Positions 27,992 through 36,410 of a stretch of 64,000 nucleotides of DNA are shown here, in pieces. Each line of letters opens with the position of its first letter. The stretch's first letter is position 1. A program made the position numbers and the translations under genes. The DNA is taken from positions 310,001 through 374,000 of the forward strand of contig OAPG01000003.1 in NCBI GenBank assembly GCA_900208305.1, written 5' to 3'. This DNA is from Melanopsichium pennsylvanicum (taxonomy: Eukaryota; Basidiomycota; Ustilaginomycetes; Ustilaginales). The notes under the pieces were generated by a model that was not told where the DNA came from, ran no database searches, and saw only the letters and a program-made list of their open reading frames with translations.

Positions 27992-28423
27992 TGTTAGTGC
28001 CTACCAACCGGAGTCCAAAGAGGGGGTGCTCGGCCCCCCTCCCAATTGAGCGATCGTCGTGATCGGGCCCCAACCGACCCTCTCCGGACCCCTCGCAGCG
28101 GAGCGGTCGGCCTGACACGATCCTCCTACCGCCCAACCGCGGCTGGCCCCTCCGTACGTAAAATACGACCGTCGGCAACCTAACATTGTAACGCCGCGGT
28201 GGGAAGTGACCGATAGCTCCTGTACCTTACCACCCCGCCCCCCGCCTGACATGAGGTTGCCTCCGGACCTTGTCGCATGTATTACTTAGTTAGCTCTATA
28301 GCAACGCAGTAGTGTGCTCTGACCCCCGACCGCCTGTGTCGCCCACGCCTACGACCTCTCCGTACCCGTAGACTCCATCCCGGCTGTAGCCGCCCGCGGT
28401 ATCTAGACCCTACAGCCTTAACA
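27992..28423 (+). repeat. 5' LTR (432 bp)
   Basis: Begins TGTTAGTGCCTACC and ends GCCTTAACA. It differs from the 3' LTR at 28044 (A for G), 28072 (A for G) and 28271 (T for C). Each difference is the deaminated form, present only in the 5' copy. Confidence 0.97.
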
Positions 28424-28462
28424 TTACATGCAACCTCCCCACGGGACGACGTCGTAACCAAG

Positions 28463-29698
28463 ATGAGTACACGCTCCAACCGACGAAACCAAACGGACGC
28501 CTCCCCCCAAGCGGAGGGAGACGCTCCCACCATCTCCCCCAGCGGAGACGAGCCCGCCAGCGTCGTTGCACCCTCGGGCAAACCGCCCGCCGCCCTGACC
28601 ACCTTGGTCCAAGGGCAAGTGGATATCCTGGCGCTTCTGCGTGAAACCTCTGAACAACAGCGGCGCATTACCGCTCTGTTAGAGGCCGCCTTCTTCCCCA
28701 GGGAGGATCAACCTAGACCGGAGTCTTCCCAGCACCACCAAGGAGCAACCGCTGCCCAGGTTCCCCCGCCAACCGTAGCCCCCGTCTACGTGGAGGCCGC
28801 ACCCCGCGAGCCAGAGATTCGACTCCAGGCTCCGGAATGGGACGGCAGCCAAGACAAACTGGAGGACTTCTTGGATCAATGCGAACTCAACTTCGAGGCT
28901 AATCCCTCCAAGTTTCCGACGGATGCCCGTCGCATCATGTTTGCCATCGGCAACATGACGGGCAAACCACGAACCCGCATTTGCAATGTGCGACAACAGG
29001 AGGGGGAGGATCCGCCCTGGATGAGCTCCTGGAGGGCCTTCTGCGCCGACCTCCGTTGCGTCCATGGCGATCCCGACCCCAGCTACACCGCACGCCTCCA
29101 ACTGAATGCCCTCCGCCAGAAGGGATCAGTATCGGAGCACGCGGCGGAGTTCATGTCGCTGACGGCCAAATCGCACCTGACTGACCAGCAGCAGGCGTTG
29201 ATGCTGTTCGAACAAAGCCTCCGGCCGCGCCTACGGGAAAAGCTCACCCACGTGCCGATGACCGACATCCGTGACTTCATCAACGCCGCCATTGTCACGG
29301 AGCGCCGGATGCAGGTGATACAGGAGGCCACAACAAGACCCACGGAATCACAGCTGCAACACTGACCGCCCCTCCCAGCCGTGACGGCCAAACGAGAGCC
29401 CCCGGAGGGACCCCGCAAAATGGAACGACCTCCACTACCGGCCAAGGACCCTACGCGTGATGCGGCGGAACGCCTCCGCCAGCACCGACGGACCAACAGG
29501 CAGTGCTTCGGCTGCGGTGGCAGCAACCATTTGGCCCGTGACTGCCCGAAGGCGCCCCAAACACAAACTCTCCGGGCACATGCTATTTCATTCGACAACG
29601 ATTCCGGTACTATACTCGTCAACCCCATGGATGACGGGTCAGCCTCCAACCCCGACAGTGACCTATCGGATTCGGAGGATCCCCCGGAGGGAAACTAA
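28463..29698 (+). pseudogene. gag: chromovirus gag with one internal stop
   Basis: The ATG at 28463 opens a 411-codon frame ending at TAA 29696-29698, interrupted once by TGA at 29363-29365. Residues about 110-290 form the capsid-like helical part (PEWDGSQDKLEDFLDQCELNF, LTDQQQALMLFEQSLRPRL), which is typical of Ty3/gypsy Gag. After the stop the same frame encodes a basic nucleocapsid with a CCHC zinc knuckle, CFGCGGSNHLARDC. Gag should coat genomic RNA and build the particle. The stop separates capsid from nucleocapsid in this copy; because frame and motifs stay intact on both sides, I regard it as a recent nonsense change, though readthrough is conceivable. Confidence 0.85.
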
Positions 29699-29733
29699 GG
29701 GTCGATGGGTTCCTTCGGTCCGAACCCATCGAC
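29689..29733 (+). promoter_or_regulatory. -1 ribosomal frameshift signal joining gag to pol
   Basis: The heptamer GGGAAAC (29689-29695) is in the required phase (G_GGA_AAC) at the last two gag codons, directly before the TAA. After 5 nt there is a perfect 12-bp hairpin: 29701-29712 pairs with 29722-29733 around a 9-nt loop. The pol frame is -1 relative to gag and is open across the site (from 29662). Slippery site, spacer and stem match the established rules for -1 frameshifting. A pseudoknot partner for the loop was not worked out. Confidence 0.85.
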
Positions 29734-32700
29734 AACCTAAGCCAGCTCCGGGTGCTTGCCGCAGCATTCTGGGCAGCCCACCGGACCGACACTCCCGTCG
29801 TGGAGCAAGAGGGATCCGTTCTCCGGATCCATCGACACCCTACCTTACCAACCTACGAATGCTTGGTAAGCGTCGGCGACACGCAAGGCCTCGCCTTGCT
29901 CGATACCGGCGCCACCGCCTCTTTCATTACTCCCGAAATGGTCGCAACGGCCAACATTCCTACCCACTCCCTCCGTAAATCCGTCCACGCCACATTCCTC
30001 CAGGGCATGTCGGCCGCCATCAGTCGCCACGCGGCGGTGGATATCATCATCAACAACCACTGCATCACCTCACGCCACCGACTCTTCATCACCCCCATGA
30101 CCTCCCACAACGTGCTGTTGGGTATGGATTGGATCGAGGCCGCCAGGCCGGAGCCAAACTATACCCTCCGTACGTGGGACCTCCGGGTCCCCCACACCGT
30201 CACGGTGCCCTCCAACCCCAAACTCGAAAGGAACAAACTCCACAACTTGGTCGGCCGGCGACAGCTGGTCTCCACTGAGGAGGACTTGCTGGTCCTCCCA
30301 GAACCGGAAGAGGAGCTACTGCCCCTCCGAGCTTCCGCGACCGACCTCGCCGCCCTACCGCCAGAATACCGCGAGTACGCCGACGTCTTCAACGCCGAGA
30401 GGGCCGACCAACTGCCTCCCCACCGCCCACACGACCACGAGATCAACCTGGAGGCTGGCAAAACCCCTCCCTACGGCGCACTCTACTCCCTGTCGCACCG
30501 CAAACAAGAGGAGCTCCGGAACTACCTCCGGAAGATGCAGGCCATTGGCTTCATCCAACCGTCGAGTAGCCAAGCTGCCGCGCCCCTCCTTTTTGTACCA
30601 AAGAAGGACGGTCGCCTCCGGCCGTGCGTGGACTACTGCGCCCTCAACGCCATCACCGTCAAGGATCGCTACCCAATCCCCCTCATCTCCGAACACCTTG
30701 ATTGGCTGGCGACGGCCAAGATCTTCACTAAATTTGACCTGAAGGGTGCCTACAACCTCCTCCGGATCGCCCCCGGGCACGAATGGAAGACCGCATTCCG
30801 CACGCGCTACGGCAGCTACGAATACCTCGTCATGCCGTTCGGCCTCTGCAACGCTCCGGCGACCTTCCAACGGCTCATGAACCACGTGCTGTTGGATCTC
30901 TTAGACGTGTCCGTCATCGTATATCTGGACGACATCCTAGTCTTCTCCGACAACGAGGCCGACCACCACCACCACGTCTGCCAAGTGCTGGATCGATTAC
31001 GGAGGCATCAGCTGTATTGCGCTCCGGACAAATGCGAATTCCACACCGCCTCCGTCGAGTTCCTCGGCTACCTCGTCAGCCCCGACGGCCTCTCCATGGA
31101 CCCGACCAAGGTCAGTACAGTCTTGGAGTGGCCGCCACCACAGTCGATCCGACAGATCCAAGTCTTCCTCGGATTCGCCAACTTCTACCGTCGCTTCATC
31201 CGCCACTATTCTCGTGTAGCGGCCCCCCTCACCGACCTCCTGAAAGGAGGAGCCTCCGGAAAGGTAGATCTGCCCCCGGAAGCAACGGCAGCCTTCAACC
31301 GGCTGAAAGAAGCGTTCACCTCTGCCCCTATCCTCCGGCACTTCTCCCCAACGCTCTACACCGTCGTCAAAACAGACGCGAGCGATGCTGTGGTAGCCGC
31401 CGTGCTGTCGCAGTGGCACCCACAGCCGGGCGCCAACGCGAGCGCCGAGCCCAACAGCCGCTCGCACACCCTCCATCCTGTGGCATACTGGTCGCGAAAG
31501 ATGATCCCGGCGGAGCGTAACTACGAAATCCACGACAAGGAACTCCTGGCTATCGTAGACGCCTGCGGCGCTTGGAGACACTACCTCCATGGCCTCACCC
31601 AACCGTTCCTCATTTACACCAACCACCAGGCGCTCCAGTATTTTCAGACGAAGCGACAACTCAACCGTCGCCAAGCCCGCTGGCAAGCCGACCTGGCTGA
31701 GTTCGACTTCGTCCTCCACTACCGTCCGGGTAAGGAGGCCGTCCGCCCCAACGCTCTGAGTTGCCGGCACGACTTGTTCCCCGACGGACCGTCGCGCCCA
31801 GACCCCGCCAACCAAGCCACTCTCCTCCCTGCAAACTTGTTTGCAAGGGCAGCCGGCGTACACTCCTTGGACCCCCTGCCTACGGAGTGGATCGAAACCC
31901 TCCGGAAAGCAGCCAACCTCCCCCCAAACGTTGCCGTCCGCAATGGTGTCCCGTACACCACAGAGGGTCACGTCTACCTGCCACCCCAATTACGGGACAA
32001 GGCACTCCACCTACTGCACAACCACCCTACGGCGGGACATCCTGGCCGCAAGACAACCCTCCATCTCCTCCGCCAACGTTTTTACTGGCCAACCATGGTG
32101 CAGGACACCGACAGCTATGTCGCCTCTTGCGCGGCCTGCTGAGGGGCAAAACACCCCCGTCACAAACCCCACGGCTACCTTCTGTCAGCGGTCGCATGCC
32201 AGAGATCCGAATTCCCGTGAGAAAACGCGACTCGCCGGATTTCAGTGAGTTCCGGCGGTTAAGCGTGGCCTCAACGGATATCGAAGAGAATCCCGCGAGT
32301 GGCGATCTCTCGACGGATATCGGCTGACCGCTGGTGACACTCCGTACAGAGGTAACGCGGCAAGCTCGGACGGGGTACTCGGTCGACGCGAGTGTCACGA
32401 CGTCGACAGGATACTACTGGTGGCTGGTTAGACCTCAGCCGTTGTTGCTGGTGGGGATATGAGGGGCTGGTTGTGGTGCCAGGCCCGCGGTTGAGGTTCC
32501 GCCTGTAGTTGAAGTGCTACAGCGTCGATTGGGGTGTCGACGACATCTATATGTTGTTCTCCGTTCACCAACGGGGACACAGACTATATGGATCGCAATG
32601 AATGGTATTGCGATGTGCGACGTGTGAAGAGTATGATAAGTACGACGTACTGATAACTATGTGTGACTGAGATATAAGATAGAGTGGATGAGCTTCCGCT

Positions 32701-34099
32701 CATCCGATAGCGGGGAACAGAGTATTTATATATATGTATCGTGTGCGAGGTCCATCGGTACTGTACGACCTGCGTGCGTCGAGCTTGGACCCCCGCACGA
32801 TAAGACTGCCCCCTAGTCCTTCGGCAGGGTGCTTCCGAGCACGCCCGCGTGCTCCCTCTCCGTTGCCCCCTGGGCGTCGATTGGCCCACGTGTCGTTCCG
32901 GCGTGGCGTTAGTCGCCGCCATCGCAGATGCTCCCCTTGCCATCGATACCTTCGATCTCAGCCGATTCAACATCTCTGGTCTGCGCAGACCTCTTCCTTG
33001 GGACCCACTCCCGTGACACCTTCTCCTGTCGGTCCCTCCCGATCGGCCGTGGTCCACTATTACCATGGACCACATCACTGACCTCCCGCCCTCCCTTGCC
33101 AACGGCACCACCTACAACTCCATTCTTGTAGTCGTCGACCGCCTCACCAAGTTTGTGGTCTTCATTCCTGCAAACAAAACCGATACGGCGGAGACTTTGG
33201 CGTACCAGCTCCACCGCTACGTCTTTTCATACTTTGGCCTCCCGGACACCATTGTATCTGACCGAGGAACCACGTTTGTAGCTTCCGTTTGGACGGAACT
33301 CCTCCGGGCCCTCCGGATTAAAGGGTCTTACTTGTCGGCCTACCACCCTCAGACAAATGGCCAGACCGAGCGAGCCAACCAGACGCTGGAGTTGTTCCTC
33401 CGCTTCTATACGGCCTACGACCACAGCGACTGGGCAACCCTCCTGCCGACAGCCCAGCTCGCGCTGAACCAAAGACCGTCGGCGACCACAACCATCGCCC
33501 CGGCTATAGCTTGCTTCACGTTTGCACCTCGGGCACACCCCTCCATCCCCCCGGCCACCTGCAACGTTCCATCGGCGTATAAAGTGCGGGTGTGCCAGGA
33601 CGCCATCGCCAAAGCCAACCTTGCCGTCGCGAAGTGGTTTAACCGTCGCAGGAGCAACGTCTTGTTCCGCCGGGGGGACCTGGTGCTCCTCCGTACCAAG
33701 CACCTCCGCAGCGACCGACCCTCCCACAAGCTCTCCAACCCCCTCGCCGGCCCGTTCAAAGTCGACGAGGTGATTAGCGACCGAGCCTACCGACTCCTCC
33801 TGCCTCCGTCGTGGAAGGTCCACCCCGTCTTTCACGTACAGATGCTGGAGCCATACCCCGACGGAGTCAGGGAGTCCAGCGACGCCCCCCAACCGACTAC
33901 TCTGGAGGACGACTACGCCGATTTCGAAGTCGAGGGCGTATTGGACTCCCGCCGCCGCGCCGGACGCCTACAGTACAAGGTCTCCTGGGTAGGGTACCCC
34001 CCAAGCTGGGTCCCGGCGGAAGACGTGGACCGCGCCCCGGATCTGGTCGCTGTGTACCACGCCGCGAACCCGACCAAGCCTGCCCCTACCCGGCGCTAG
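29695..34099 (+). pseudogene. pol: chromovirus pol: PR, RT, RNase H, integrase, chromodomain (disrupted)
   Basis: Entered by -1 frameshift. Domains in order: aspartic protease (LLDTGATASF, about 29900), reverse transcriptase (KKDGRLRPCVDYCALN; FTKFDLKGAYN; YLDD at about 30920), RNase H (VVKTDASDA; HDKELLAIVDA), integrase HHCC finger (GHPGRK...C-A-A-C). A TGA follows at 32140-32142 and a foreign repeat at about 32190-33020. Coding resumes in another register at about 33030 (PPDRPW, then MDHITDL) with the DDE core (ITDL, VSDRG, GQTERAN) and a C-terminal chromodomain (FEVEGVLDSRRR...YKVSWVGY). Changes from family consensus include Asp to Asn in the usual YTDH motif (YTNH) and Arg to Cys in YRALN (YCALN). 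Together these make the copy inactive in cis. Confidence 0.9.
32190..33020 (+). mobile_element. nested nonautonomous repeat inserted in integrase
   Basis: About 830 bp of non-pol sequence separates the integrase zinc finger from the catalytic core; the edges are approximate. Pol-like sequence on the left ends near CTTCTGTCAGCGG, and pol resumes after CTTCTCCTGTCGG, which may contain a short duplicated target. The segment 32334-32720 aligns by eye with 36548-36960 beyond the 3' LTR: GTGACACTCCGTACAGAGGT against GTGAACACTCCGTTCAGCGG, GTTGAGGTTCCGCCT in both, and ATAGAGTGGATGAGC in both. It is therefore a relative of the repeat that hosts the chromovirus. No transposase is encoded. Confidence 0.7.
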
Positions 34100-34278
34100 G
34101 CACGGATACGAGCGACGGTCGCCGTCGGGAGACCCCCCGCCGGAGCCAAAACCCCTCCGGTCCCCGACCTCTTGGCTAGGAGACCCGGTCGGGCTCCCCT
34201 CACCCCCACTCCCACACACGGACACACACACACGCAAGCGACAGAAAAAACAAGTGCATTCGAATAAGGGCCCCGGGG

Positions 34279-35513
34279 CTAGTCCCTCAGGAAGCCCTCC
34301 AACCACGCCCAGACCACGTCCACCTGCTGTCGCGTGTTCTGCGACAGCTGCTGGATCTCGCTGATCCGGCGGAGCTCTCGCTTGCCGCCGGTCCTCAGCG
34401 ACTCTGCCAGCAACAGCGCAGCCACGTCGGCCAGCCCCTGTTGAAATAACTCAGTCCCCTCCTGCACCCCGTGGAAGAGGGACTTGGCACGCCTTACGGC
34501 CGCACCCAGGTCCCCCAGGCCCGTAGCGGACTCCCCCGGCTGGCCTTGGGCCCGCGCGCAAGTGCGGCGCCGCTCTCGGGCAGCCTCGGCTGGACGGTCG
34601 GGGCGGGACCTAGCTCGCTTGCGAGCCGCCTCCCGCTCCCGACCCACCGCGCCCACCCGAGCCACCTCCTCCCTCAATTCCTCCTCCCCCTCCGGGATCT
34701 CGCCAAGTGTCCTCAGCGACAACCTGACGTTGGGGTGGGGGCGGCGACGCCAACCGACCCCCCCGGACCTCCACCTCTCAAGCAAGCACGCGTAAACCCT
34801 CATTTGGAGGGGACCTTGGGCGCCGCCAAGTGGGGGGACTGTCGGGGAAAACAAAAGGAAGAACAAGAGTCAGCCGACCACCCAATACATCGCGACAGAC
34901 GCCCGACGGAAATACTTACCGCGCATATCCGCGTCGCAGGGTTGCCCGTGCTGCCCCTGACACCGACGGCAGCGGAGATCGCCTCCTGCCCGCTCACAGG
35001 CAACGCCGGCGCATACGCAGGCGTAGCAATTGCCCCACGTCTCGGCCCATAGCGGGGCAAGATCTGTCGTATTGGCCACGGAAACACAAACGTCAGTAGC
35101 GATCCCAATCAACACAGCAATGGAACAAATACTTACCATCACCAACAAGTTCCGGAGTGATCTTGATGGGAACCAAAGGACGCGACCACGGCATCAAATT
35201 CCGGGGCGCCAGGACAAGGGAAGTGGTGGAGGAAGGATTGACCGACGGATCGGCAGACTGTTGACGCACGGCGTGCTCGTGGCGGCCCGAGTTGGCCCCC
35301 CGGGAAAGGTGAGCACGCGGGGAGCGGCGCACCCCCCGGATGGGACCAGCGGAGGTCTCCGACGGCCGATCTGTCGTAATCGAAACAAGGGGGAGGGAAC
35401 AAATGTCAGTAACCCATTCCACGGCACCGACAGGTGGTTGTCAGACCCTCTGGGCCCCCCATCCACAACCGAACCACGACGGAACCACGACCGACTCACC
35501 TCCAGAAGCGGGT

Positions 35514-35549
<36 letters not shown>

Positions 35550-35677
35550 GCTGCTGCTGCTGCTGCCGACGCTGCCGCCGTCACGGACGTAGGCGATGGT
35601 GGGGGAACGGTACTGATGTTGGCCGACGGGTTGTCGGCCGGGGAATCCATGATAGCGTCTGCTGGTGACGACGACAT
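34279..35677 (-). CDS. antisense four-exon gene carried by the chromovirus (Cys-rich protein)
   Basis: Exons 35677-35500, 35370-35137, 35063-34920 and 34838-34279 total 1116 nt, 371 aa. Introns of 129, 73 and 81 nt have donors GTGAGT, GTAAGT and GTAAGT, acceptors ending CGACAG, and all three are phase 1; every exon is open only in the frame this predicts. The protein starts MSSSPADAIMDSP, has an Ala/Thr run from a GTT-type trinucleotide repeat, a Pro/Ser/Arg-rich middle, a seven-Cys motif (Cys 150, 153, 155, 160, 169, 172, 180; CYACVCAGVAC...CRRCQGQHGQPC) that could bind zinc, then an Arg/Glu-rich coiled-coil tail. A TATA-like ATATAAGG lies about 65 bp upstream (35738-35745). It is transcribed toward pol, opposite to the genomic RNA. 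Function unknown; I recognise no family. Confidence 0.72.
35515..35567. repeat. GTT/GCT trinucleotide repeat in the antisense gene
   Basis: (TTG)n followed by (CTG)n on the plus strand. It encodes the Thr and Ala runs near residues 38-56 of the antisense protein. Copy number should be variable between element copies. Confidence 0.85.
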
Positions 35678-35737
35678 TGCGAAGGGGGAATGGGGAAGAA
35701 TGGGGGAAATCGAGAAGGAAGACCCGTCGACGCCAAT

Positions 35738-35745
35738 CCTTATAT
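35738..35745 (-). promoter_or_regulatory. TATA-like box of the antisense gene
   Basis: ATATAAGG on the minus strand, 61-68 bp before the ATG at 35677 and about 235 bp inside the 3' LTR boundary. It is a plausible core promoter for antisense transcription, judged by position only. Confidence 0.45.
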
Positions 35746-35978
35746 CCCCCCTCGATAGCTACGCACGAGCAATGGCGCACAGTCAATTCCGCCGGTCCAA
35801 GGCATTGTGGGTGGTATTGCCTCATTGCTGCGCATCCGCGATTAAATTGCCGAGACGAGCGTCGCGACTTGTACAGAGAGGCGTCCCTGGCGCGGATTAA
35901 GGTTGGGGGAGTACGACCCCCCTCGCCCTCCTGTCCTATCAGCCGCCTGGGGACCAGTCGGCCTGAACCGGGGGGTAA

Positions 35979-36410
35979 TGTTAGTGCCTACCAACCGGAG
36001 TCCAAAGAGGGGGTGCTCGGCCCCCCTCCCGATTGAGCGATCGTCGTGATCGGGCCCCGACCGACCCTCTCCGGACCCCTCGCAGCGGAGCGGTCGGCCT
36101 GACACGATCCTCCTACCGCCCAACCGCGGCTGGCCCCTCCGTACGTAAAATACGACCGTCGGCAACCTAACATTGTAACGCCGCGGTGGGAAGTGACCGA
36201 TAGCTCCTGTACCTTACCACCCCGCCCCCCGCCTGACATGAGGTTGCCTCCGGACCTCGTCGCATGTATTACTTAGTTAGCTCTATAGCAACGCAGTAGT
36301 GTGCTCTGACCCCCGACCGCCTGTGTCGCCCACGCCTACGACCTCTCCGTACCCGTAGACTCCATCCCGGCTGTAGCCGCCCGCGGTATCTAGACCCTAC
36401 AGCCTTAACA
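35979..36410 (+). repeat. 3' LTR (432 bp)
   Basis: Same length and termini as the 5' LTR. It keeps TCG (on one strand or the other) at the three positions where the 5' copy has TTG/CAA. It is preceded by a GGGGGG-containing purine-rich tract suitable for plus-strand priming. Confidence 0.97.

Follow-up and report, generated by a model that had tools for sequence, protein, structure and literature searches.

A chromovirus family of the plant-parasitic smut Melanopsichium pennsylvanicum (Ustilaginales) appears to carry a genuine antisense accessory gene, located on the minus strand between pol and the 3' LTR, with four exons and three phase-1 GT-AG introns. We give slightly better than even chances to the full reading, in which the product is a nuclear regulator of the element. 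Its parts differ in strength: that this is a real coding gene is very probable, that it gives a spliced antisense mRNA is likely, and that the protein is a nucleic-acid-binding regulator, a role deduced from its layout and from gene23 and HBZ of known elements, is a tentative proposal. That the intron-bearing gene has been under protein-level constraint among the compared copies is well supported by the comparison of their sequences.

The chromovirus copy and its antisense gene

In the window (the whole stretch of 64,000 nucleotides analysed, from contig C3 of the 21.1-Mb assembly), the interval 27992-36410 is a chromovirus, with the RT-RNaseH-integrase order, a C-terminal chromodomain and LTRs all present (Table 1). 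It gives Pfam matches to Ty3_capsid, protease, RVT_1, RT_RNaseH, Integrase_H2C2, rve and Chromo, and is flanked by the target-site duplication GGTTT. In this copy the gag and pol frames are interrupted and the antisense gene is not: gag is split by a stop at 29363-29365, and pol ends at 32142 and resumes by 33017 in a different frame. The gag carries its own CCHC motif, and the idea that the antisense protein stands in for a missing nucleocapsid was rejected for this reason. A genome search for the RNase H family placed 36 matches in the score band of the window copy (frames of 512-1260 aa, 826 in the window copy), which, as assigned by score, probably belong to the same element family. The 3' LTR is variable at 78/310 non-CpG sites in the fetched copies, far above the introns of the antisense gene or pol.

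Table 1. Positions in the window of the chromovirus copy, its antisense gene and the predicted protein features
Feature	Position	Strand	Remarks
Ty3/gypsy chromovirus copy	27992-36410	+	8.4 kb; gag-pol on + strand; LTR pair, GGTTT on both sides, Pfam domains
5' LTR	27992-28423	+	432 bp; 3/432 differences from 3' LTR
Chromodomain of pol	33923-34060	+	PF00385, E 5.6e-7
Exon 4	34279-34838	-	560 nt in 29/29 copies; basic helical region, C-terminal helices, stop
Predicted C-terminal helical hairpin	34282-34515	-	AlphaFold2 block, pLDDT 70-76; placed from a related annotated copy
Intron 3	34839-34919	-	GTAAGT...CGACAG; branch-like CTGAC 34869-34873
Exon 3	34920-35063	-	Symmetric phase 1-1 cassette; 144 nt in 29/29 copies
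Cys motif, Zn2Cys6-like spacing	34936-35028	-	Residues 150-180; spacing kept in 29/29 copies
Intron 2	35064-35136	-	GTAAGT...CGACAG; branch-like CTGAC 35092-35096
Exon 2	35137-35370	-	234 nt
Intron 1	35371-35499	-	GTGAGT...CGACAG; branch-like CTGAC 35405-35409
Exon 1	35500-35677	-	178 nt; ATG at 35677; Ser/Pro/Thr/Ala-rich, triplet repeat
TATAAGG, putative core promoter	35738-35744	-	At most 300 nt upstream in 29/29 distinct copies
3' LTR	35979-36410	+	432 bp; preceded by a purine-rich tract

The joined exons (178 + 234 + 144 + 560 nt) amount to 1116 nt and encode 371 aa plus a stop, which confirms the four minus-strand segments and three phase-1 introns described in an earlier note on this DNA, including the donors (GTGAGT, GTAAGT and GTAAGT) and the shared CGACAG acceptor. 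A CTGAC resembling the general branch-site consensus is found 28-35 nt before the intron's 3' end in 87/87 introns of the distinct copies. In the window the pattern CTGAC-N12-40-CGACAG occurs three times, precisely in the three introns, with 1.39 occurrences expected by chance; at least three were reached in 14/100 shuffles, so the pattern alone proves little.

The earlier note had also proposed that the gene is expressed from its own promoter. A putative one is indicated by the conserved TATAAGG, which lies upstream of the ATG, between exon 1 and the 3' LTR and outside the interval 34279-35677 that the note had considered, and by the upstream stretch, which varies little among copies. At the 5' end of the gene, 18/29 copies have a 48-nt in-frame duplication that provides a second start and 16 N-terminal codons. 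This extension is constant in length despite an internal T-tract, and the T-rich tract before it varies from 9 to 18 nt.

Copies in the genome and constraint on the protein frame

A DNA search of the assembly with the antisense region gave at least 44 matches, of which at least 36 cover all 1399 bases, and 30 of these full-length loci were compared; two are identical, leaving 29 distinct copies. All three introns are present in 29/29, at dispersed insertion sites, and no intron-less copy was found among the 30 loci, which agrees with the earlier proposal that the introns survive retrotransposition. Conservation of the exon frames and of the Cys motif across copies, which had been set in advance as a test of the gene, was indeed found: start, splice sites and frame are intact in 26/29 and the Cys spacing is kept in 29/29. 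The other three copies have one lesion each, namely a premature stop (L010), a lost start (L009) and a lost donor (L006), and over 87 introns the AG dinucleotide is kept in 87/87 and GT in 86/87. Genome searches with single exons gave 45 matches for exon 3 and 43 for exon 4, 38 of them full-length in each case; for exon 4, 36 of the 38 are stop-free and the remaining 2 each contain a single TAG.

Partial copies L072 and L073 retain the introns wherever they overlap them, and L071 is without ~247 nt spanning the greater part of exon 1 and a portion of intron 1, which is not an intron loss. The latter (G000:C3:505500-509500) is a shortened antisense-gene copy and shares its contig with MEPE_01710 (P0006), a public model in which antisense exons 2-3 are joined to a Tudor/staphylococcal-nuclease protein; the fusion is either an annotation artefact or a host gene using the antisense promoter of the element. 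Copies of the antisense region are also found close together in opposite orientation at G000:C1:2072917-2076455 and C8:511935-517866.

Length changes among the 29 distinct copies respect the reading frame, although, with a maximum divergence of 5.4%, this constancy partly reflects recent ancestry. Exons 3 and 4 each have a single length and those of exons 1 and 2 change only in steps of 3 nt or its multiples, the changes in exon 1 weighing little because they fall mostly inside the triplet repeat, and the introns vary in steps of 1 nt (128-130, 72-73 and 80-81 nt). The older partial copy L072 follows the same rule, having gained 9 nt in exon 2 and lost 1 nt in intron 1, but divergence is no greater in its introns (6/128 and 2/73) than in exons 1-2 (18/178 and 14/234). 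Homopolymers of at least 5 nt in the window copy vary in length at 0/9 exonic and 2/2 intronic places, only six of the nine exonic ones being fair controls since substitutions interrupt three of them in the majority of copies.

Substitutions were counted in all 30 copies, excluding codons 30-58 (the triplet repeat). At non-CpG sites, 18/250, 13/261 and 34/254 are variable at codon positions 1, 2 and 3, and 30/227 in the introns; positions 1 and 2 together (31/511) are thus less variable than position 3 (34/254; p = 0.0009), where the rate equals that of the introns. The ratio of nonsynonymous to synonymous changes (N:S) at non-CpG sites is 20:17 in exons 1-2, or 0.52 of the neutral ratio (p 0.037; expected S fraction 0.31), and 15:15 in exons 3-4, or 0.41 of it (p 0.012; expected S fraction 0.29). 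When changes are split into shared and single-copy, two of the four classes are significant (p 0.012 and 0.019); the others are shared changes in exons 1-2 (0.80, p 0.41) and single-copy changes in exons 3-4 (0.62, p 0.25). The last 1.1 kb of pol, compared in the 26/29 copies with a homologous flank, follows the same pattern (11/287, 7/289 and 23/270 at positions 1, 2 and 3). Two further measures are only suggestive: one premature stop was seen against 4.35 expected (P 0.069), and splice signals changed at 2/40 sites against 28/187 (p 0.067).

Variable sites in the antisense region (L001-L030) are strongly enriched at CpG, which suggests cytosine methylation and deamination. At CpG there is no position-3 excess (40/93, 31/82 and 27/89, with 31/56 in the introns), as would be expected if methylated CpGs mutate away once a copy has inserted; N:S there is 1.31 (exons 1-2) and 1.25 (exons 3-4) of neutral, and shared CpG changes also lie above the neutral ratio, at 2.0-2.2.

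The predicted product and competing explanations

The seven-Cys motif of the earlier note stood as described: six of the seven cysteines are spaced C-x2-C-x6-C-x8-C-x2-C-x7-C, which resembles the six-Cys spacing of zinc clusters. A strict PROSITE-like zinc-cluster pattern failed, as basic residues are absent from the first loop, and a Pfam search of the protein gave no Zn_clus hit at E<=10 and no convincing family; overall, Pfam, PDB and tRNA searches returned nothing usable. AlphaFold2 models of annotated copies are poor (mean pLDDT 48 and 41) and offer no adequate basis for fold searches, and the Cys motif is among the poorly modelled parts (pLDDT 41).

Retrotransposition normally erases introns. 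Here they are reverse-complemented in the genomic RNA, so that they would go unrecognised and unspliced before reverse transcription and hence be copied. A spliced mRNA of the gene can come only from an antisense transcript. We propose that RNA polymerase II would start just downstream of the TATA box and that the antisense mRNA would then be spliced. The frame constraint asks for a role at the protein level, and the predicted layout comprises a disordered N-terminus, a zinc-cluster-like module, a basic helical region and a C-terminal hairpin that may serve self-association. Such a protein may act in the nucleus on the DNA or RNA of the element itself, possibly regulating its sense transcription or its silencing. 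The host genome has one Argonaute, three RdRP loci and matches to RNase III and DNA methylase, which makes silencing pressure plausible; an antisense RNA would then risk silencing, and, more speculatively, the gene may manage that risk.

The public gene models raise the question of exon 3. If the gene is real and this exon is usually skipped, giving a Cys-free protein of ~323 aa from a three-exon mRNA, or is an alternative cassette, this would account for the four near-full-length models P0001-P0004 (4/4), all of which omit it and run in frame from exon 2 straight into exon 4, and it would suit the symmetric phase and 144-nt length of the exon. However, P0005 and P0006 contain exon 3, its length and Cys spacing hold in 29/29 copies, its splice signals match those of the other introns and its non-CpG variation is low (6/102), though that of intron 2 is equally low (4/59); by codon position the exon alone shows no bias (1/31, 2/39 and 3/32). 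We consider this account of exon 3 unlikely. It is conceivable, if on the unlikely side, that the introns serve both to lock the orientation and as a switch: only the antisense transcript could yield the protein, and exon 3 would be kept or skipped to give a zinc-cluster or a Cys-free version of a regulator that the element encodes and that manages the element's own transcription or host silencing. A captured host gene carried as passenger cargo, of no use to the element, could be expected to leave just this trace of genomic DNA capture, a reverse-orientation gene with introns. We judge this quite unlikely, since searches of the own genome with exons 3 and 4 showed no paralog outside the element (one match to exon 4 has E 1.55), the codon pattern resembles that of pol and the protein searches matched M. 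pennsylvanicum only. These found 7, 7 and 6 proteins (~8000 candidates were scored in the first two), and in the viral_contigs scan 0/79 pattern matches were confirmed; no relative outside the species was found in the protein searches and viral_contigs, the own genome being the one eukaryote genome covered. Other Ty3 families of the genome were sampled at L074 (repeat of ~1094 bp) and L075, which have no antisense frame of at least 120 codons between pol and the 3' LTR in a scan of one 10-kb stretch each, which a gene with shorter exons would escape; this sample is a small part of the elements, as the RNase H search listed 122 matches.

An antisense non-coding RNA would overlap the genomic RNA and could limit the element through dsRNA and RNAi in a host with Argonaute, RdRP and RNase III matches, but the frame-preserving indels and the codon-position bias point to translation, which makes an incidental frame highly unlikely. 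As to coding on the + strand, a 200-aa frame at 34450-35052, opposite exons 3-4, is open in 28/29 copies; its variable sites (12/154, 7/157 and 8/146 at positions 1, 2 and 3) peak at position 1 and are hardly more frequent at position 3 than at position 2, which is not the pattern of + strand coding, and the other candidate frame, 35027-35668, is stop-free in only 9/29 copies, with the phase unchanged in 4 of those. Coding on the + strand was rejected on the codon-position pattern and chance frames in GC-rich DNA on the comparison of copies; together we hold them to be extremely unlikely. The reading that we prefer remains an accessory gene whose protein acts on the element.

Comparison with known antisense genes of LTR elements

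A multi-exon gene maintained in a mobile element shows that reverse orientation lets spliceable genes be kept. Because the small genome of this fungus holds dozens of copies and has matches to proteins of RNAi and to DNA methylase, the expression and splicing of the gene and its effect on the element are directly testable. Our comparison with LTR elements draws on PMC7264820, PMC5408684, PMC8365987, PMC11963269, PMC9603552 and PMC4227169. Among the best 4 to 20 papers listed per literature search, in a collection with few subscription papers, no description of a multi-intron antisense gene in a chromovirus was recognised by title or start of abstract.

In plants, antisense genes are already known from the interval that separates pol from the 3' LTR, the position shared by maize Grande gene23, rice RIRE2 and the Silene Retand aORFs (PMC7264820). 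A promoter upstream of gene23 drives its transcription, and the protein it encodes is nuclear; what antisense accessory genes do in LTR elements is, according to the same source, unknown (PMC7264820). Retand differs in belonging to a non-chromovirus lineage, and TRP28 is what most of its antisense ORFs encode (PMC11963269). Neither the main text of PMC7264820 nor that of PMC11963269 uses the word intron. Among fungi, Boty/BcGypsy1 of Botrytis cinerea is likewise a gag-pol element with a CHROMO domain (PMC4227169) and has an extra antisense gene, brtn (PMC7264820, PMC8365987). It comes from another fungal phylum, and brtn was compared by description only.

The fungal Zn(II)2Cys6 regulators share the six-Cys spacing and a helical C-terminal region (predicted here), whereas our protein has a seventh Cys, lacks basic residues at the positions usual for these regulators and gives no Zn_clus hit. 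HBZ of HTLV-1 comes from a spliced transcript and is a bZIP protein. It is encoded in antisense by an LTR virus and is nuclear (PMC11963269), as is proposed for the product here, but its antisense promoter is inside the 3' LTR (PMC7264820), whereas the candidate here lies between the LTR and exon 1. Antisense accessory genes are thus known in such elements, and the gene described here, with its three introns and zinc-cluster-like motif, is an unusual version of them.
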